Shown here piece by piece: positions 1 through 10,986 of a DNA stretch of 10,986 bases. Position numbers and translations under genes: made by a program. The stretch's first letter is position 1; the number at the start of each line of letters is the position of its first letter. Source of the DNA: Candidatus Gracilibacteria bacterium CG2_30_37_12 (GTDB taxonomy: Bacteria; Patescibacteriota; Gracilibacteria; BD1-5; UBA2023); assembly GCA_001873165.1 (NCBI GenBank), contig MNYO01000123.1:1-10986 (forward strand). The letters run 5' to 3'. The notes beneath the pieces were generated by a model. It searched no databases, was not told the origin of the DNA, and was given only the letters and a program-made list of their open reading frames with translations.

Positions 1-1763
1 TTTTCTTTTACGAGAGAAGTAATATTTTTAGCGGTATTTGCAAAAGTATACTGTACTTGAATAGTATATCGTTTTTCTTCCACAAGTTCATATTTTTGCT
101 GCATTCCTATTTTCTCAAAAACTCCATCTCCATTCAAGTCCCATGCAACATCTGTAAGTTCATATCCAGGATTTTCTGCTTTTACATCGGTTGCATCTAA
201 TGTAATGCCTGTAGGAGTACTTACATCGGTAATATAATACGCTTTTATAGATGCATTATAAGTACCATCAGCAAGATGATTCCCAGAAGTGTCTGTAATA
301 CGTAAGAGTGATTCACTCTGTACTCATCTTACTAGACTGAGTGGATAGAGTATAGAAAAATTATCACTCAATTCTGTAATTTTCCCAGCAGAGTCAGTCA
401 AAATAACTTTTATTTTCACATCTTTATATTCTCCTGGAAATATATAGTCAAATGCTGGATCTTGCGATATAGTATGATTTTCAATAACCCATCTATAATC
501 CACAATTTCACCAGATTTCACCACTTTATCACCGAGAGAAAATGTGTATTTTAAGGGGTTTTCCGCATCCTGTTTATGAATAATAGTTGCTGTGATATTT
601 TCGCTTCATTTTGCTGGAATGATAAAAAGCTTATCACAGGTAGTTCCAGAAGAAATATTGAGACAAAGAACTTGATCTATATCTTTCTTGGTTATAGAGA
701 ATATCGCATTAGCACTCTCAGAGACAAGATCATTATTCTTTTCTACAAGCCAATGAATATTTCCAAAACTCGTGAGTTTAGAAGCATCATATGTAATGGA
801 GGTTTCTGTTTTTTTAATATCCACCATTCCTATAATCTGTATCGGATGAAAATTAATAGTCAGAGTTTTAGATTCATGTGTTACTCTATCTATCCCTTCA
901 TACACTCCTGTCGGTTTAAAAACCTTGGCTTGATCAAAAGTACAAATAATAGGATTATCTTGTGCATTTATTCCTTCGATATCAGAAGAACCTGTCGGTA
1001 AACATTTTGCCCCATCAAAATTTATTTTATAACTAGAAATATCAATAATCTTTGCTACGACGTTTGCATCTGCTTTGAGATCAAATTTTAGTTCAACTGG
1101 TCAGATTAAATTATCGAAATTATACATCTGTGCACTACTTTTAAACCGTTCTGATGTGGATTTTTCATTATCATACACGAGTACTCCCCCATTTGGATTC
1201 TCATAATCTGTTGCATTGATTTTAGTAACCAGAGAAGCCCAGAGAGTGATATCAGAAAAGAGTAATACTCCAAAAAAGAATGCTAGTATAATAGAAATTG
1301 TTTTCTTCTTTTTATATTCTTTCTTAGTCAAAATAGCCCGAAAAAGATATATTATCCATATAATCGAAAGAAGAAATGTTACGACTCCAAAAATAGTACT
1401 GACGAGTTGTTTCAATAATCGTGCTATATCTGCTGGATTGATACCGAAACCTGTAAAGAAACTTGCCTGTCCTGGATTGAAAACGATATACGCAAGAAAA
1501 GCTCCAAAGAATATGAGTGCAACGAGAAGAATAGCTCAAATAATACGCAAAAAATCCCCCGTATTTAAGGGTTTCTTTTTTGTTTTTCCTTTTACATCTG
1601 AGATAATACTTGATTCAGTAGGAGAAATAGTAGGTATTTCTTCATCAATAAATGTGTCTGACAGGAGATCGACCTTTTGTGTTGATATAGATTCTACCTT
1701 TGTAGATTCTAAAATCTCACCAAGTAGTCCACTAGATGAATTATCATTTTCAGTATTGGTCAT
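1..1763 (-). CDS. Large three-helix membrane protein with PKD-like extracellular domains (partial, 3' end outside window)
   Basis: This frame stays open from the ATG at 1763 to the window edge when UGA is read as Gly; in-frame TGA codons give residues 76, 221, 386 and 480. An in-frame TAG lies just upstream, so 1763 is the first possible ATG. Residues 1-70 are hydrophilic, acidic and Ser/Thr-rich, and end in a lysine cluster. Hydrophobic helices follow at about 77-95, 118-142 and 155-175. The second and third are separated by a KKEYKKKK loop, which predicts the rest of the protein outside. That outer part contains beta-rich, PKD-like segments, for example around GEIVDYRWVIENH (about 420-470), and a later one with the motif WDLNGDGVFE. 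The helix pair with a basic loop resembles the pilin-like pair in the giant protein just upstream, so the two are probably partners in one envelope structure. I recognise no enzyme motif. The exact function is unknown, and the C terminus is missing. Confidence 0.8.
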
Positions 1764-1809
1764 AAGAATGAAGATTATAAACTACAGAATCTATTTGTAT
1801 AAAAAGCAT

Positions 1810-1843
1810 GAGAAGAATAAATAATAACTTACTTATTCTTCTC
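1810..1843 (-). terminator. Hairpin between the two large surface-protein genes
   Basis: An 11-bp perfect inverted repeat (GAGAAGAATAA at 1810-1820, complement at 1833-1843) encloses a 12-base loop. It starts 15 bases past the TAA stop of the giant gene. On the minus strand it is followed after three bases by CTTTTTAT. This could be an intrinsic terminator or a partial attenuator before the downstream gene. The stem is AT-rich, so termination strength is uncertain. Confidence 0.45.
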
Positions 1844-1857
1844 TGTATAAATAGAAA

Positions 1858-4800
1858 TTATTTCAACCAATCAGGAAGCTCCTCGTCTGTCGTTGAAATG
1901 ACTGGTCATTCAGACACTACAGGGACTGGTTTTTTCTTTTTTTGTTTCGATGAAATTATCTCTTCTTCTTTTGCTTCTTTTTCAGAAGAAACTGACTTCT
2001 TAGATAATTTCTTAGAAGGTGTTTTTGTCTCTGATTTTATCTCTTCTTCTGTAGAAATAATTGCCTTCTCTTTCTTTTTAGTCACTTTTTTAGAAGTATC
2101 CTCTGTATCAATAGCTACAGAAACTGGACCTTTAAGCCAATCTGGTATGTCATCATATGGAACAGCATCTTTCTCTCATTCAGTAGTAGTCATTATTACT
2201 GGTTCCTCAGGAATTATTTCCTGTTTCGGTGTTTCAAGAATTATCTCTTCTGTTGGAATAACTGGAGCTTCTGATGCTGCTCATTTAAGCCAATCTGGAA
2301 TATCATCTTCGTCAGCTATATCAGTGGTCTTTCTTGGTTCTGTCATTTCTTCTACTACTTCCTGTTTTAAAGATTCTTCATCAATTCCTTTCATCCATGG
2401 TGGTAAATCAGATATGGTTTCATCTGAAATGACTTCTGGTTCCATTACAGGTATTTTTTCTTCTAGAGTTTCTTGAATAGAATTTTCTTCTAAAGAAGTT
2501 GATGCTTCTATTCATGTTCCTTTCAGCCAATCTGGCATACTAGATTCAGAAGATGTATCAATATTCTCTTCTGGAATCGGAGAAGCAATGTCTTCAGTTA
2601 TCAAAATAGGATTATCAATCTTTTCCTTCTCATTCGATTCTAGAGAAGATACAGCAATACTCTCTTCAGATATGATATTTTCTGGAATAGAAATATCATC
2701 CGTAGTAGTCTCTGAAGATACAGGCAAGGATTGTAAGTTTGTTGATTCTTTGAGCCAATCAGGGATATTACTTTCTGTCGGAGCGACATAAGTTTCTTCT
2801 GGAGGTACTATCATATTTGCATCAGGAATAGAAAGTGATTGAGGTGCAGAAACAATATTTGCCAGTACATCCGTATGAACTTTTTCTTCTTTCGGAATAA
2901 TGGGTTCAATAGGAGTGAATTTTTGTACTGGTGAAGATTTTTGTACTGGTTGTTTTCCGGAAATTTTATCGATAATAAAATCCTGAAAGCCGAGATTTCC
3001 ATCTTTATTCAGAAGTTTGAAATACACAAAAGCAGCGATAATAAGTCCTAAAATACCAAGAATAAGAAATCCAAGGATTTTCCCAAAACCGAGAATGAAA
3101 CCGAGTACTCCTCATGAATTTGAAGTATCTGTGAGTGGTGCTGTATTTGTTGGGATATTGCTCTGTCCTCCGTAGATAATAGTCTGGAGTTGTGATTTAA
3201 TAATATTTTTATCTTTTACCTCAATTGTTGCATCATCTTTAATCGCATTGAGAATGAATGTTCCAAGTTCTTTGTTGAGAGTAACATTGGTTGGGTGAGA
3301 AATGATATCATCGATATTTTTCATAATCGCCGCATACGAAGGATTGGTTTTTGGTATGAGCGATTTGAGTACTTTTGTTGCCAAACCGATATCATCTTTC
3401 ACTTGCGTATCAGCGAGAAGAAATCCTTCTAAAAGAGAATAGAACAAATCTTTTGTCGGAGCGTCCAATGCAGAATTGACATCAACATAATTTTCAAAAT
3501 CGATAATAGTTTTTGTTTTTTCACGAGTATCGAACCAGTTTTCTTGAAGTGCAGAAAAATATTGCATCAATTTAAGTCGATCTTGTTCCTGAGCTCCTTT
3601 TATGAGATCCTTAAGTTTTTCCAGATTCATTTTATCTGTTTCAGAAATATCTGTTGGTACAACCTCGGAAGTACTTCCAGACATACTTTCTGTATTTATT
3701 CCTGCATTAAAATCATAAACAACTTTGATATCTTTCGTAGCAATCACTGCATTATTGAGGTCATAGAGAGTTATTCTCATAGTTCTTTCTTTCGCAGCAA
3801 CATCAGAACTTTTGAGTGTAAACACGCTTCCTTTTACAGACGAATCTGTTCCTTTATTATCGATATCATCAGCTGGATCACCATTCAAATTTGAATCTAC
3901 TAGGATATCAGTGTCGATTGCATATTTTGCAATATTTCCTTTGGATTCACCAAGATAGAGCGAAAGTTTATCGGTACTATTGGATATATGAATAGTATCA
4001 CTATTGTCGGCTGCTGGAAATGAGAAATACACAATAGGGTCTGTGGATTTCTTAAGCTTCAGTGCATTAATAATATCTTTTCTGGGCGTTACAGAAGTAC
4101 TTTTACTATTAGTTCCATCAGAAACTTCTAGGGTAACATCTCCCAAAACTGGACCTTCTCAAAAATCGTAAGAAAAGGAGTTTGGTGTTTCGGAAGTTGT
4201 ATCTCCGAGAGACCATTTTGCTTTTGTATATAATCCTTTTGTCGTATTGAGAAATATAAATTTATTTCCGATAGCGATGTATTCGAGATTTGGCTGAAGT
4301 TCATTCTTTACTGTAATAGCCAAGTATTTCGTATTAGAAATACCCTTGTAAGTAACTTTCACTTTGAAATTGAAGTTACCTGGTGTTGTAAATGCATGAC
4401 TCACTTTCGGAGTATTAGTAGTCTCTTCATAAAACCCATCACCATTATAATCCCATTTATATTCTGCTTTATCAGCAAGATCTGTTCCAAGAATATTTCT
4501 CGCACTCACGGTGAAATCTATTTTTTGATCTACGGAAATATTTGTATTTGAAGCTTTGAGTGTGATAATAGGTGTATTGATATTATCTGCTGTCAGAGTC
4601 AGAGAATAACGTTCTGTACTCATTTCATCACTATTTACTTTCAAGCCATTGGAATCTTCGAGGATTACTGCAAAATAATATTTCGCTCCAATACGAGGGA
4701 GAACGAATACTGTTTTTGGAGACCGAGTAATACGAAAATCCTGTGGCTCTGGATCTTCTTGAGTATAATAATACCAAATATAAGAACTAATAACTCCGTC

Positions 4801-7446
4801 TTCATCTACGGCATTATTTGCAGTAACTGTTACCATAACAGGATCTGCGTCGATTTTATCAGTCAGAATAGAAAGTGAAGAGAGTTTTGGTGCTATATTT
4901 TCTACCTTCACATATGACTGATCGGTGCTTTGTGTTCCATTTTTCTTACTACGAACCGTGAGAGTAACAGGAAAACATCCGAGTTCATCAAACTTATAGC
5001 TAAAATCTCTCTGAGAAGAATTTCTACTTCCGTATTTCCATGTATAACTCATATTCTGTGCAGTCCCATCAGTATTGATACTATTTTCTGCAGTGAGATT
5101 TATGGCTTTTGCTCGATCGATTATGAATGCTTCCTTTCCATCACAAGTACCAGGCGTTGGGATAATTTCTTCATTATCTCGTTTAATAGTAATGATAGCG
5201 AATGGATTATTACTATCAGTTACATATACTTTTCGAGTAATAGAATTACTATCAGAATTACGTCCATGAACAACGACATTTACAGAATAAGTTCCTATTT
5301 TTTTATAAACATGGCTCATTCTTCCTACTGTGCTCGTATCAGTCTCACCATCTCCAAATTGCCATTCAAATGTTTGAGCTTCTGGCGCATCTGCAATAAA
5401 AGAGATAGGAGATCCTACTTGTACAATTTTTGGAGAAATAATCAATCGTATAGAAAGTAGGGAGTCAACAGTAATATCTTTGCTATATGAAATAGTTTTA
5501 CCATCTTTATTAGATACTTCGAGTCCTATTTTATGAGTACCAATGGTATCAAAAGTATATCTTCCCATTGCACCATTACGAGTAGGATTGGAAAGTTCTG
5601 TACGCCCGCCATCGATAATCCACGCATAACTCAGACTTCCTCCATCAAGATTATCTGGATCGTAACTCTTGGTCGCATCGAGCAAAAGAACATTTGGAAG
5701 TTCAGCACTGACGGATTTAGAATCAAAAACAGCGATAGGATCACGTCATTCTATATTGACGATGATAGTATCATAATCTTCCTTTCCATTGGATGCAAGA
5801 GTTTTGAGTTTAATGGCAAATTTCCCAGTTCGGAGAAATTTATAGGTAATATTTTGAAGACTAGAAGTATAGAGTGATTTTCCTGTTTCCTGTTCACTAA
5901 TCTCCCAGGCATATCCAAGATTAAGAAAGCTTGCCGTATTAAAAGCACTGAAATGAAATTCATCTCGAGCAAAACCGTTTACTTTATCGGCTTTGATAGT
6001 CGAAATCGGATCGCGAATCTCGATATTTATTTCTTTAATAATTTTCTGATTCTCATTAGTAGTCACTTCCATCCTCATCTTATAAGTTCCCACATTGGAA
6101 AATATCTGACGATCAAGCGATGGGGAATTATTATATTGTGCTACATTTCCATTTCCATACTCAAAACGAGTGGAAGTAAAACGAGTTCCTGTGGCAGGAA
6201 TAGAAGCAGTAGCATCGATCAAAAGTCCTTGTCTTCCCTGGGCTGGTGTAAATTTTATCGTATCAAGATTTGAAACATAGACTCCATTGATAGCAAGAGA
6301 AATATTTCCAAGTTTCGGAAGGACTTGTATATTCACAGAAGAATCAAAAGGAAGCACATCTGTTTTTCCATTTTTATTGCGACTCGATGAGAGAACATTG
6401 AGAAAAACCGTGTAAGTCCGCTCTTCTGGGAAATCATATTTAATAGATGGTCCGGTTCCAAGAATCGTTCGCATCCCACCAGATGATCGAATCCACCAAA
6501 TATAATTGGCTTTTGCAACGGTCACTCCAGATGGATCGATGACATCAGAAGCTCGCAGAGTTACAGTCAGTGGTGCATTTCCTGTTGCAGGAGATGCAGT
6601 AATCTTTCCTTTGATACGATTTACCTTTACTTTCGTAAGATAATCATTCAAACTTTTTGCAAGATTTGTGATGTAATTATCGGAATCTGGAGTTTTTTTT
6701 ACGAGTGCAATCGCGGTCATAAGAGAATCCGCGAGATTTGCATTGAAAATAATATCCTGAGAATCAGGAAATGTTGCTGCCGATGCTCTTACAAGAGATT
6801 CAAGATTCGTAAGAGTTGCTGTAGTAATTTTATTATTGACCTGGTATTCTCGATCCAGAGTAGAACTCAAGAGTTCGATTTGTTTTTTATAGCTATCAAA
6901 AGTATTCGTATCATAGTCGGTGTAGGCATAGGTTGTTTCAATCAACGAAGGCATTTCAAATGCATTATTGAGAACTCCACCCGCTCCACCCGCTCCTATA
7001 AAGAAGCGAACTATAGAATAAGCGAGAAATATCAGAAGCAAACCGATAAATACATGGAAAATAGTCGTCTTAGATTTTTTCACTTTATCTTCATCTCCTG
7101 CTGCTGTCAGAACATTGAATCCAGCATAGATAATATAGATAACCCCAACGATTCCAAGGAACATAAGGAGGTATGCAATGATATCCTGAACGTATTGAGA
7201 AAATTTACGATTCTTTTCGATATCGTTAATATTTCCACTCACAATCTGTGTTCCTCGATCGAGCGAACAATATTGTGCAGATGCAGGATCGTAACTATTA
7301 CAATAGTTAACATAATTTGCTGACTGACAATCTGCCCAGTTAAAGAGATTACATGCGGAAGCGAGAGAAGAAAATGACAAAAATGCCATCAAAAATAGTG
7401 CGATACTGGCAAGAAAATGTGTTTTTGTTTGAAAAGATATACGCAT
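1858..7446 (-). CDS. Giant surface protein: T4SS pilin-like segment, PKD array, membrane anchor and PDWLK-repeat tail
   Basis: Four apparent ORFs and a C-terminal stretch share one frame and join into about 1862 residues when the seven TGA codons (residues 567, 1096, 1445, 1645, 1722, 1757, 1847) are read as Gly; the stop is TAA. I prefer the ATG at 7446 because it opens directly on a signal peptide (residues 1-31, ending ASA before C32). Four cysteines (32, 40, 49, 60) precede helices at about 86-110 and 130-152, joined by a basic loop (DEDKVKKSKTT). This resembles the two-helix T4SS pilin family (VirB2-like) common in Patescibacteria. About eight PKD/Ig-like domains span roughly 280-1120 (GDGETD, WDYNGDGFYEE). 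They are followed by an EF-hand-like Asp-rich loop near 1175, a helical region at about 1265-1440, a Gly-rich membrane helix at about 1446-1472, and a charged tail with six PDWLK motifs. Predicted topology: PKD array outside, tail in the cytoplasm. It may act in adhesion or as part of a secretion/pilus structure (inference). Confidence 0.85.
1861..2766 (-). repeat. Six PDWLK(G) motif repeats in the C-terminal tail of the giant protein
   Basis: The short motif (I/M/L)-P-D-W-L-K-(G) recurs six times in the tail: IPDWLKE at 2746-2766, MPDWLKG at 2518-2538, the variant LPPWMKG at 2386-2406, IPDWLKG at 2281-2301 and 2128-2148, and LPDWLK as the last residues at 1861-1878. Spacers are about 28-90 residues, acidic and low in complexity (Glu, Ile, Pro, Ser, Thr); the last spacer is lysine-rich. 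The motif Gly is written GGA, GGT or, at 2281-2283, TGA. The only tryptophans in this tail segment are in the motifs. This looks like a multivalent docking peptide; the partner is unknown. Confidence 0.85.
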
Positions 7447-7477
7447 CGGAATACTTTTAGTAATTAAATCTGTTTCG

Positions 7478-7506
7478 AGTTTAGCATATGTCCGTATAAA
7501 AAGCAA
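7478..7506 (-). promoter_or_regulatory. Possible promoter for the giant surface-protein gene
   Basis: In the 99-base gap before the giant gene, the minus strand shows TTGCTT (7501-7506), 17 bases, then TAAACT (7478-7483). This is a fair match to a sigma-70 type -35/-10 pair and would start transcription some 25 bases before the ATG at 7446. The gap holds no clear Shine-Dalgarno sequence. AT-rich DNA gives such matches by chance, so this is tentative. Confidence 0.35.
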
Positions 7507-7545
7507 AAAATCGGAGAGAGAATTTCTGAAATCAGTAAATATCAA

Positions 7546-8991
7546 CTATTCTATTTTACATTCTTCCTCAAAAGCTGTTCCGTCAATCAAATGTTTTTTA
7601 TTACAATCTATATATTTCATAGCACCTGCAAGGATATCTTTGGAATTCTTCTTAAGATTTCCAAGAATAGCAGAGAAATACGAATCATATTCATTTTTCA
7701 AACCTTTCTGAAAAATTTGCAATGGGACATCTGGATTCATAAAATTTCTGTATTTTACTCGAGAATAATCTTTGCTGATAGCTTCATTTATCCGACTTTC
7801 TTCCTGTAATCGCTGTGCAGGAAGATACATAGGAAAACTTTGGAGATACTTCCCTTCTGCCTCTCCAGTTGCAAGATATGCGAGAAAAGAATATCCTGCC
7901 TGAGGATTCTTGGATAAACTCGAAAGTGCAAAATAATTATATTCTCCAAGATTTATATCATTTTTTGCATCGAGAGAAACTTGTGGAATTTCGGATGTAC
8001 GAAGATAGAGTGTGGAAATAGTATTTTCTGTTCCCGCACGTTTAATAGCGTACTCAATCTCTTTGAGAAGTGACGGATATCCTACGATCATACCGATTTT
8101 TCCTCTCACAAACATATCAACGGTCGTCAAATTAAGATCTTTCATAGTAGTCTCAATATGAGCAATGGAACTCGGAGACCCTTTCTGAGCAAAAGAAAAA
8201 TAATTATCGAGTGCTATATTTGCATTGGTATCGATAAACTGTGCGTAGGAAGGTATCTTATTTTGAAGAAAAAATAATGACAAAATATTGGAAGCTCCCG
8301 GTATATATTTACTATCCAGTCCGAGCATCATATCGGTATAATCCTGAGTGGTAGCAGGTGTTTGTATATCAGTATTTCCTGCTGTATCCGATGAAAGAGG
8401 AAGGCTATTTTGTCCTATTTCACTCCAGAGATGTGGAACGGTTCTCACAAGTTTCCAGTTGTAGAAAATCCCCATAGCTTCGTATCCAAGTGGAATTCCT
8501 TTGATTCCAGATACGGTTTTATTATTTCCTGAAGTATCTTTTTCCGTATTTTCCACCAGAAGACCGTCGAATACTTTATTGAAATTCTTTGAAAATTCAT
8601 CGGGATTAATAATAGCCGCAGGAATAGCGAGAATCTTGGATTCCAATAATCCTCCATCGCTACTATTTACCACAAATATATCTGGCGAATTTCCATCTCC
8701 TATAACAGTCAGGAGAGTTTTTTCATAATCCACATAATTCCCAAATTTCGTTACTTTTATCTCCGTATTTTTATAGTCAGGATAACGAGCTTTGAACCCG
8801 GTAATAATATCGGAAAAACCAGCAGACTCATCACCAACTACCCAGACCGTGAGCTCTTTTGGAGCAGTAGACAAAACTTTCTTAGTAGTAGATCCAAGCA
8901 TAGATATACCGATAATAATACCGAGAATAATAATACCAGTTACTGCAAAAAATATAAGTTTTGTTTTGGAAAGAGAAGCTAGATCTGGCAT
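7546..8991 (-). CDS. Membrane-anchored extracellular solute-binding protein (ABC-type, family 1-like)
   Basis: The 481-residue product starts with a short cytoplasmic stretch and one hydrophobic anchor (about residues 12-33, rich in Ile/Gly), with no lipobox Cys. The mature part looks like a family 1 (sugar-type) periplasmic binding protein: an opening beta strand ELTVWVVGDE, then GFKARYPDY, and a SPDIFVVNSSDGG segment that matches the usual strand-turn after the first helix. Later come KGIPLGYEAMGIFYN and the helical C-terminal half with FLAYLAT. Such proteins capture a solute and pass it to an ABC permease, but no permease or ATPase gene is in this window, so the ligand and even a transport role are open. 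The gene ends with TAG and, unlike its neighbours, uses no TGA in 481 codons. It sits 39 bases after the HIT gene and 99 bases before the giant gene, on the same strand. The assignment rests on recalled family features, without alignment. Confidence 0.75.
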   Translation of the reverse strand: MPDLASLSKTKLIFFAVTGIIILGIIIGISMLGSTTKKVLSTAPKELTVWVVGDESAGFSDIITGFKARYPDYKNTEIKVTKFGNYVDYEKTLLTVIGDGNSPDIFVVNSSDGGLLESKILAIPAAIINPDEFSKNFNKVFDGLLVENTEKDTSGNNKTVSGIKGIPLGYEAMGIFYNWKLVRTVPHLWSEIGQNSLPLSSDTAGNTDIQTPATTQDYTDMMLGLDSKYIPGASNILSLFFLQNKIPSYAQFIDTNANIALDNYFSFAQKGSPSSIAHIETTMKDLNLTTVDMFVRGKIGMIVGYPSLLKEIEYAIKRAGTENTISTLYLRTSEIPQVSLDAKNDINLGEYNYFALSSLSKNPQAGYSFLAYLATGEAEGKYLQSFPMYLPAQRLQEESRINEAISKDYSRVKYRNFMNPDVPLQIFQKGLKNEYDSYFSAILGNLKKNSKDILAGAMKYIDCNKKHLIDGTAFEEECKIE

Positions 8992-9030
8992 AGAATTTTT
9001 CTTAAATTATAAATTAATATTCTTATGTAT

Positions 9031-9339
9031 TTAATTTGCAAGGAAATGGAGGTGTATGTGCATCACTTCTTGTCCACCATCTTTTCATACGTTGAATTGT
9101 AATTTATAACCAGAAATCTGGATCTTGTGAGCCAGATCGCGAGCTATTAAAAATAATCCACCAACTATATTTTGATCAACATTGGTCATATCAGAAATAG
9201 TGGCGATATGTTTTTTGGGGATTACGAGCATATGAATACGCGCTTTTGGATGTAAATCATTGATAACGATGTAATTTTCATCTTCATATACAGGAGTCGA
9301 TGGAATCTCATGAGCGATGATAGAGCAGAAAATGCACAT
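9031..9339 (-). CDS. HIT (histidine triad) family nucleotide-binding protein
   Basis: The 102-residue product is a compact HIT protein, a family of nucleotide-phosphate hydrolases and transferases of the HINT type acting in the cytoplasm. It opens with MCIFCSII, the usual HINT start with a CxxC pair, so I choose the ATG at 9339 over an in-frame start at 9411, which would only add an unlikely hydrophobic extension. A middle block reads NDLHPKARIHMLVIPKKH. The catalytic triad HIHLHF (His94, His96, His98) lies at the C terminus, preceded by GGQEV. The frame is interrupted by TGA at 9085-9087 (residue 85). The family has a conserved Gly exactly there (N-x-G-x-x-G-G-Q), so reading it as Gly restores the active site; reading it as a stop would remove the triad. 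The stop is TAA. The gene follows the reverse transcriptase by 87 bases, with a possible own promoter. Confidence 0.92.
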
Positions 9340-9370
9340 AAAAAATCTTGTAAGAAAGTAGTTAATCGAG

Positions 9371-9398
9371 AGTATATAGGAAAATAGATGAAATTCAA
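9371..9398 (-). promoter_or_regulatory. Possible promoter for the HIT gene
   Basis: Between the reverse transcriptase stop and the HIT start, the minus strand has TTGAAT (9393-9398), 16 bases, then TATACT (9371-9376), about 30 bases before the ATG. This is a good -10 with a moderate -35. No Shine-Dalgarno sequence precedes the ATG; the leader ends in a T-run. Confidence 0.4.
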
Positions 9399-9426
9399 AT
9401 TTACGGGTCAAAAAAATATCACTTTT

Positions 9427-10554
9427 TTAGAAGTATGCTATTTTTTTGTTTTTCTTCTTCGCTATCTTTCCATACCCACTAGAGATATAAAACTCATTCC
9501 AGAAATATGCTGAGAGGTTTTGTGAGAGGATTTTTTTACGAAGTCGGTAAGTGGAGAATTGCTTCATGATGCTAGCGTAGACAGTCCCTCGTGGGCCGAG
9601 ATAGGAATTTATGGAGGAAAGAAAAGTATCTCGTTCGGACAATGCGAGCTTTCCTCCATTTTGTCTGATTTTCTCGTTCCATCCTTCAATCGTGGTAAGG
9701 AAATTTCATTTTGTTCGGTTGCCGATATAGGTTCGATTGGGTTTTATATAGGTTCCAAGAAATGAGAAACCATCCTGAACTGAACAAATCGTAATCTTGT
9801 CTGGATGAAGTGTGAGTCGGAGCTCTGTTCGGAGAAAATTTTCTATCTTCTCTATACAAGAAAGGAGAAAGTCACGATTAGAATGGATGAGAACAAAATC
9901 ATCCACGTATCGACCGTAGTGCCGAATTTTCAAATCTTTCTTGATAAATTCATCGAGCGGATGAAGATAGAGGTTCGCGAAAATCTGACTCGTCAAATTA
10001 CCGATAGGAAGTCCTGTATCCTTTGGAGCGTAAAAAAGACTTTTATTTCTTGGAAGTCCTTGCCAATCAGTAGGCTTTCACTTAATGATACAGTTCTTCG
10101 TTGGATCATTTCAGATGACTGACCTAACGAGGAAACGGAGTGTTTCCGGGTCCTCTCACTGGTATTTTGTATCTATGATATGCTCAATCATCGAGAGGAG
10201 GATATGTCGGTCAATAGACATGAAGAACCCAGCAATATCGAGCTTGAGAATCCATGCCTCGTTCTGGTAGTTATCGGATGAGGCTCGTATGAATCACTCC
10301 ATTCTTTCTATACCAAGTTTCGTCCCCTTTCCTATACGACAGGAATAGGAATCGTGGATGAAGAGATTCTCAAATATCTGGCTTAACTCATTGATGATGA
10401 AATGATGGACGATACGGTCTCTGAAATCTCCAGCGAATATCTCTCGTTTGACGGGATGATTGACGATGAAAGCAATACTTGTTTCGACCCTATAGGTTCG
10501 ATTCATAATTGTTTCGTGGAGCTGTATCAGATTTGATTCGTAGTTGAATCGCAT
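9427..10554 (-). CDS. Diversity-generating retroelement reverse transcriptase
   Basis: Read with UGA as Gly, this frame gives about 375 residues. In DGRs this enzyme copies a template-repeat RNA with errors at adenines and so rewrites the variable region of a target gene. Visible motifs in order: AGDFRDRIVHH and FIHDSYSCRIGKGT (residues 41-78), motif A KLDIAGFF with Asp106, WQGLPRNKSLF, IGNLTSQ at 184-190 (the DGR form, where other retroelements have QGxxxSP), and YVDD at 216-219 with HYGR before it. A thumb-like part with FLGTYI and a basic C terminus follow. TGA codons give Gly at 87, 133, 148, 159 and 283; residue 87 is the Gly of the GFIR block that I recall as conserved. The ATG at 10554 falls inside the family's N-terminal region. 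The missing start appears in another frame upstream, so the gene may be frameshifted. No avd gene is visible. Confidence 0.9.
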
Positions 10555-10618
10555 TGAAAGTATTCCGTTTGTTTTTACGACAATCGAAATAGGCAGTAAA
10601 GAGCTTAGTGAGGTTCAT
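10490..10618 (-). pseudogene. Out-of-frame N-terminal piece of the DGR reverse transcriptase
   Basis: An ATG at 10618 opens a 42-codon frame ending in TAG at 10490-10492. Its first 23 residues (with LFTAYFDCRKNKRNT) look like the usual DGR reverse transcriptase start (L-x-x-AY-x-x-C/A-R-x-x-K-R). After about 10553 the family sequence continues in the next frame, as RFNYESNLIQLH, so the residues encoded below that point are out of frame. The piece is therefore best read as the true gene start, separated from the main ORF by a small indel. A sequencing error is also possible. Confidence 0.65.
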
Positions 10619-10641
10619 AAATTTAGGAGTTGGCGTATAAA

Positions 10642-10681
10642 AAACTCCCCATAAATCGTCTTATAGAGTTATGGGGAGTTT
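10642..10681 (-). terminator. Strong intrinsic terminator hairpin after the VR-like segment
   Basis: A 13-bp perfect inverted repeat (arms 10642-10654 and 10669-10681, core ACTCCCC/GGGGAGT) has a 14-base loop. On the minus strand a run of six T follows directly, as in a Rho-independent terminator. It begins one base after the TAG of the VR-like ORF. Its place right behind the VR is also where several DGRs carry a hairpin that helps target recognition, so a second role is possible. Confidence 0.8.
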
Positions 10682-10682
10682 C

Positions 10683-10871
10683 CTAGTTCTTGAGACAACG
10701 CACAGAGAATCCGTACGCCCGAACACCGTTACCCGCAGGGTACACGGCAGTGGAATTGAAGGCCAGATCGTAACCGGTCGTCGTGTCCGGACTAGACGAC
10801 CAGTAGAAGCCGTACGGCCCCTGAGTAGCGAGCGAACCGTCGGAGGCATTGCGGTAGCCTGCGTATGGCAT
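10683..10871 (-). CDS. DGR variable-region-like C-terminal segment of a C-type-lectin-fold target protein (truncated or 5' incomplete)
   Basis: From an internal ATG this encodes 62 residues, beginning MPYAGYRNASDGSL, with GFYWSSSPD in the middle and ending GFSVRCLKN before TAG. That is the C-terminal end of the Fib_succ_major/C-type-lectin-like proteins that serve as DGR targets. Homology-like residues (LNLPTVLK) continue upstream in frame to about 10895, so the ATG is not a natural start. The frame is open to the window edge, but the sequence beyond about 10900 holds a terminator-like hairpin and looks non-coding. Base composition is striking: by hand count about 59% GC and about one A in six, in an AT-rich genome. 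Adenine-directed mutagenesis would leave such a trace, which favours a VR over a template repeat; a template would be rich in AAC/AAT codons at the variable sites. Best read as a displaced or partial VR. Confidence 0.65.
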   Translation of the reverse strand: MPYAGYRNASDGSLATQGPYGFYWSSSPDTTTGYDLAFNSTAVYPAGNGVRAYGFSVRCLKN

Positions 10872-10925
10872 TTTAAGTACTGTCGGGAGATTAAGAGTAT
10901 TAGACTTGTCCCGTAATAATATATT
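10872..10925 (-). other. Spacer between hairpin and VR-like segment, partly VR-homologous
   Basis: The part nearest the VR (to about 10895) still encodes family-like residues (NTLNLPTVLK). Beyond that I see no coding signal. A weak CGGGA/TCCCG pairing with a long loop spans the middle. No promoter or ribosome binding site is evident. Confidence 0.4.
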
Positions 10926-10960
10926 TACAAAAAAGAGGAGGTTTTCTCTTCTTTTTTGTA
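10926..10960. terminator. Bidirectional terminator-like hairpin
   Basis: A 15-bp inverted repeat (arms 10926-10940 and 10946-10960) with one G:T pair and a 5-base loop. Each strand has A-rich and T-rich ends (six A and six T), so it could stop transcription in either direction. It probably ends a minus-strand gene entering from beyond the right edge: one minus frame there reaches TAG at 10964-10966, just before the hairpin. That gene is otherwise outside the window. Confidence 0.65.
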
Positions 10961-10986
10961 TTTCTATGTATTTCCAAATGACGTTT

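Follow-up and report, generated by a model that had tools for sequence, protein, structure and literature searches.

The question raised by this locus is how UGA is decoded in a run of genes that carry it in frame. The stretch of DNA analysed here (the window, 10,986 nucleotides) is the entire contig C110 of a draft genome (G000) of 946 kb in 134 contigs, estimated to be 90.5% complete. A sequence-only reading of the window had proposed that UGA is read as glycine throughout. Our analysis supports this proposal: the DNA almost certainly belongs to a member of Candidatus Gracilibacteria that uses NCBI code 25, given the conservation of the columns in which TGA stands, the interchange of TGA and GGN between orthologues, a single release factor of the RF1 type, and tRNA(UCA) in 18 of 20 relatives. 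Six relatives identified by the largest gene of the window carry names, five of them being Candidatus Gracilibacteria and one belonging to the Patescibacteria group.

Translation with table 25 yields five large frames, all on the minus strand. A partial gene of 587 aa without a Pfam family (positions 3 to 1763) runs off the edge and holds four in-frame TGAs (first bases 1538, 1103, 608, and 326). It is followed by a giant gene of 1895 aa (1858 to 7545), which ends in TAA and holds seven (5748, 4161, 3114, 2514, 2283, 2178, and 1908); a solute-binding-protein-like gene of 481 aa (7546 to 8991), which holds none, ends in TAG, and was absent from the sequence-only list; a HIT-domain gene (9031 to 9411), which ends in TAA and holds one, at a conserved-glycine site (9087); and a reverse transcriptase (RT) gene with a main frame of 375 aa (9427 to 10554), which ends in TAA and holds five (10296, 10158, 10113, 10080, and 9708). 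The giant protein combines a T4SS-pilin-like N terminus, just under the Pfam cut-off, with PKD domains and PDWLK repeats, and has matches in all 21 genomes searched, its own included. No part of the window matched Rfam at the gathering threshold.

Over the 3464 codons of the five large genes there are 17 TGAs and no TAA or TAG, and the distribution claimed earlier (4, 7, 1, and 5 over four genes, each ending in TAA or running off the edge) was recovered exactly on recounting. In the other five frames of this DNA, stop triplets of all three kinds occur and number 84 to 319 per frame, and the TGA-only pattern of the coding frame is therefore not due to chance. UAA and UAG are used at the ends of the four complete genes (TAA three times and TAG once) and are absent in frame, as expected of stop codons, while UGA is a minor glycine codon (17 of the 209 glycine codons in the window). 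Table 25 is accordingly required to translate this contig, four of whose five large genes would be broken up by a standard gene caller.

For the protein-level comparison, the query was masked with X at each TGA and then aligned to homologues: the best 120 of 408 for HIT, less one row that was the window's own protein (n = 119), and the best 120 of 7999 for RT. The TGA of the HIT gene encodes residue 109 (residue 85 when counted from an inner ATG, as in the earlier numbering), and this column contains Gly in 92 rows, Asn in 11, Trp in 9, a gap in 6, and His in 1, which bears out the claim of a family-conserved glycine at this site. Two of the five RT TGAs likewise fall on near-invariant glycines (residue 159, Gly in 117 of the best 120; residue 283, Gly in 114). 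The other three do not: residue 87, which had also been put forward as a conserved glycine, is Gly in 12 rows and mostly Arg (40) or Lys (29), residue 133 is Gly in 9, and residue 148 is Gly in 1 and Phe in 84, being mostly Phe or Tyr in the family. The HIT and RT alignments suggested by the sequence-only reading thus show glycine opposite TGA at HIT 109 and RT 159 and 283, but not at RT 87, 133, and 148.

The uneven conservation within the RT gene raises an alternative that concerns these codons only, namely, that, in a host with code 25, individual RT TGAs are mutations in a mobile gene undergoing decay rather than retained glycines. The residues typical of the family at positions 87 and 148 favor this, as does the state of the gene itself. 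An RT-family N-terminal piece on the same strand (approximately 10550 to 10618) lies in a frame other than that of the main RT, as judged from 18 matches among the first 20 homologues, and the view that the genes are otherwise continuous consequently holds for the absence of in-frame TAA and TAG but fails at the RT start. Moreover, no template/variable repeat pair with adenine-specific mismatches was found within the window. The two TGAs at near-invariant glycines speak against decay, and we consider the alternative evenly poised. It refines the reading of UGA as glycine and does not oppose code 25.

The whole RT region (9427 to 10900) looks like a decayed DGR remnant. The motif IGNLTSQ in the window RT is presumably motif 4 of the DGR-type RT, and the protein is 58% identical over residues 3 to 367 to the RT of a fuller DGR on contig C118 of the same genome (positions 1 to 9715), which has a FISUMP-like target end, a bAvd-like gene, a template, and an RT. 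On the minus strand of the window, a terminator-like hairpin (10642 to 10681; inverted repeat I25) separates the RT from a putative DGR variable-region-like segment (10683 to 10900), the C-terminal end of a FISUMP-like protein, which ends in TAG and matches Fib_succ_major at an E value of 4.1e-5, below the Pfam cut-off. The remainder of that gene lies outside the window, and the 3' end of the segment is common to DGR repeats on C118 and C3. Contig C3 carries a further gene with the same kind of C terminus, the 3' end of which resembles the variable-region-like segment of the window. Template/variable pairs were found four times in 16 stretches examined, including C118, where 15 of 16 mismatches are at template adenines, and not in the window. 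AAY is the usual codon type changed in DGR templates. No effect of UGA was seen by eye in the DGR templates of code 25 genomes, in which the changed codons look to be of this AAY type.

The last 86 positions (10901 to 10986, minus strand) are the end of a multicopy IS-like element that recurs at the ends of many other contigs in this genome. Its 15 matches on other contigs of listed size (L059-L070, L074, L076, and L077) all lie ≤300 bases from a contig end, which suggests that the element probably breaks the assembly. At one end, the element encodes a fragment that weakly matches DDE_Tnp_4 (E value of 0.0045, below the Pfam cut-off); the piece encoded at the other end has no meaningful match.

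The codons of relatives provide a second view of the TGA columns. At HIT residue 109, GGN or TGA occurs in all 29 relatives' loci (TGA in 22 and GGA in 7). The corresponding counts among aligned relatives for the partial gene are 9/10 at residue 76, 11/11 at residue 221, and 0/4 at residue 386, with none aligned at residue 480; those for the giant gene are 5/18 at residue 600, 7/18 at 1129, 8/18 at 1478, 1/12 at 1678, 4/15 at 1755, 1/14 at 1790, and 4/7 at 1880; and those for RT are 0/20 at residue 87, 4/19 at 133, 2/19 at 148, 19/19 at 159, and 10/16 at 283, the 20 RT loci not being independent (pieces of one gene, shared genomes, and, in one case, this genome's second RT). The corresponding count for the solute-binding gene was discarded, as it mixes loci from shared genomes. 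At least half of the relatives have Gly or TGA in 6 of the 16 testable TGA columns of the window, compared to 103 of 137 GGN columns, and TGA therefore occupies less conserved sites. Nevertheless, column-weighted log-odds over the 16 covered TGA columns, with the relatives' own TGAs excluded and expectations drawn from the same genes, are positive for Gly only (+3.49), the next residues being Ser (−3.73) and Ala (−4.44). The reverse comparison is similar: the TGA cells of relatives face Gly in the window in 425 of 762 cases and Trp in 1 of 762, against a window background of 5.0% Gly and 0.9% Trp. UGA hence occurs at conserved glycine positions in the columns of protein homologues and among the codons of relatives alike. 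Where a column has TGA in some relative, glycine codons make up 61 of the 213 other cells in HIT and 533 of the 1027 in RF1; Gly leads in both genes, yet many cells are non-Gly.

The same data bear on whether UGA could instead specify tryptophan, as in code 4, which is used by mycoplasmas. Such a reading would account for the nine Trp rows among the 119 HIT homologues and for the one relative of 18 with Trp opposite residue 1478 of the giant gene. The Trp rows, however, are probably wrong code 4 translations of UGA: four public HIT entries selected by pattern (P0014, P0019, P0022, and P0033) have Trp where glycine is conserved, three of the four also have Trp at a second glycine site, and two HIT database matches among those listed carry the label gcode 4. 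Some public HIT entries thus appear to carry Trp in place of Gly. Against a tryptophan reading, the TGA cells of relatives hardly ever face Trp, and TGG remains the codon for this residue, as had been claimed: the 24 window TGG columns tested have Gly or TGA in a mean fraction of 0.008 of relatives, and the TGG cells of giant-gene relatives face Trp in the window in 263 of 317 cases and TGA in 1. The tRNAs of relatives argue in the same direction. ARAGORN found a tRNA with anticodon UCA, labeled SeC, in 18 of 20 relatives, and the five sequences printed start with GCGGGGG and finish with CCCCGCTCCA; they consequently have the glycine identity bases G1:C72, C2:G71, G3:C70, and U73, according to the rule given in the relevant part of PMC8629427. 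We therefore attach next to no credence to tryptophan and retain glycine as the amino acid specified by UGA.

Release factors are distinguished by a PxT loop in RF1 and SPF in RF2. Exactly one class-I release factor is encoded by this draft, and its PET loop identifies it as RF1; an RF2 was not found in the draft (90.5% complete). Among 40 genomes, own included, 37 have one class-I release factor, 3 have none (these being 78 to 80% complete), and none has two, and all 30 loci read of the 37 have the PxT loop of the RF1 type. The RF1 frame of this genome itself contains three TGAs, all at columns where each of the 30 sequences compared has GGN or TGA. When giant-gene orthologues from 19 other genomes were aligned, between 2 and 81 TGAs were counted per genome in the aligned stretches, with three TAAs in total and no TAG. 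Were UGA a normal stop, the window would have to consist of successive pseudogenes or of sequencing errors. Such a reading would fit the displaced RT start and the three RT TGAs at nonglycine sites, but it is extremely improbable in view of 3464 codons free of TAA and TAG, orthologues that carry TGA with hardly any TAA, a release factor gene that itself contains TGA, and a second factor found in none of the genomes.

The sequence-only reading had recommended a search for a glycyl tRNA with anticodon UCA and regarded a normal RF2 together with the lack of such a tRNA as evidence against code 25. The search succeeded in relatives and not in this draft: tRNA(UCA) is neither among its 22 tRNA genes nor detectable by DNA search, so that on paper the draft lacks the tRNA, but no normal RF2 accompanies this lack. 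The tRNA list of the draft is plainly incomplete, as Ala, Asn, Asp, Ile, Lys, Pro, and Val are also without a tRNA gene. In addition, a 3.8-kb stretch around the tRNA of relative G006 matches G001 at 72 to 82% over most of its length, whereas its best match in this draft is 79 bases (E value of 6e-6), far from the tRNA part; that DNA comparison did not find this neighborhood fits an assembly gap. A strict tRNA pattern proved too narrow, matching 1 of 21 genomes with a sequence that was not a tRNA, and was replaced by a looser pattern, which worked.

The two relatives in which the looser pattern and DNA search found no tRNA(UCA), G002 (78% complete) and G008 (93%), differ in this respect. The downstream neighbor of the tRNA gene, presumably peptidyl-prolyl isomerase-like, is present in G002 at 76% identity, and the upstream neighbor, which we take to be nucleoside diphosphate kinase-like, is present in G008 at 45% identity; searches of 4 and 8 kb, respectively, revealed no tRNA beside either gene. 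A gap at the usual place is thus a poor explanation for these genomes, in which the gene may have moved elsewhere, the tRNA may be too divergent for the search pattern, or the tRNA may be missing. The giant genes of G008 and G002 contain 16 and 10 in-frame TGAs, respectively.

Use of the reassigned codon varies widely. In giant-gene orthologues of 19 genomes (L138-L156), TGA makes up 2 to 91% of glycine codons, and within the genus of the window the share is 2 to 17%. The share falls with the G+C content of the locus (Spearman coefficient of −0.74 over 19 points, without phylogenetic correction), a relationship to which TGA in place of GGN itself contributes slightly by lowering G+C. We tentatively suggest, while leaning somewhat the other way, that the order shares a reassigned code in which UGA ranges from rare to dominant glycine codon, that its use after the loss of UGA as a stop may follow mainly mutation bias and may shrink again, as in the genus of the window, and that the code could drift back toward near-disuse of its new codon, with RF2 still lost and the tRNA perhaps missing, as the negative search of G008 (93% complete) may hint.

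The predicted mechanism is as follows. RF2, which terminates at UGA, would have been lost; a tRNA(UCA) bearing the identity bases for glycine, which we infer for this genome from its relatives, would read UGA as glycine; RF1 still reads UAA and UAG as stops; and UGG and CGA/CGG keep their meanings as tryptophan and arginine, respectively. The glycine reading is true of this window and well supported, and it is already known for Gracilibacteria: the code was predicted in 2013 and proven by proteomics in 2014, as cited in portions of PMC4032931, PMC6851277, and PMC8629427. Parts of the same literature report the absence of prfB in the group (PMC6851277) and a codon screen giving UGA as glycine (Shulgina and Eddy 2021, PMC8629427), and the phages of these hosts are treated in passages of PMC10746230.

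The system matches NCBI code 25 (Candidate Division SR1 and Gracilibacteria) in that UGA is glycine, UAA and UAG are stops, RF1 is the only release factor, and relatives possess tRNA(UCA) with glycine identity. There is no difference in kind from that code; the particulars here are that UGA is a minor glycine codon and that the tRNA was not found in the draft. In the BD1-5/SN-2 bacterium, a different organism, the same assignment was made by proteomics, with 97 peptides unique to the glycine version versus 3 unique to the tryptophan version, according to excerpts of Hanke et al. 2014 (PMC4032931), whereas the present assignment relies on sequence. Absconditabacteria share UGA as glycine and, as stated in the pertinent section of PMC8629427, also read CGA and CGG as tryptophan. 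We rejected such a reading of CGA and CGG for this genome, as neither the 12 CGA columns nor the sole CGG column of RT have Trp as a leading residue in the best 120 of 7999 homologues. Pooled CGA columns contain 44% Arg and 18% Lys, and the CGG column contains 42% Arg and 32% Lys. In contrast to the tryptophan reading in Absconditabacteria, five of the 12 CGA columns here (residues 37, 90, 215, 274, and 280) have Arg in 120, 80, 120, 118, and 120 of these best 120 homologues, respectively.
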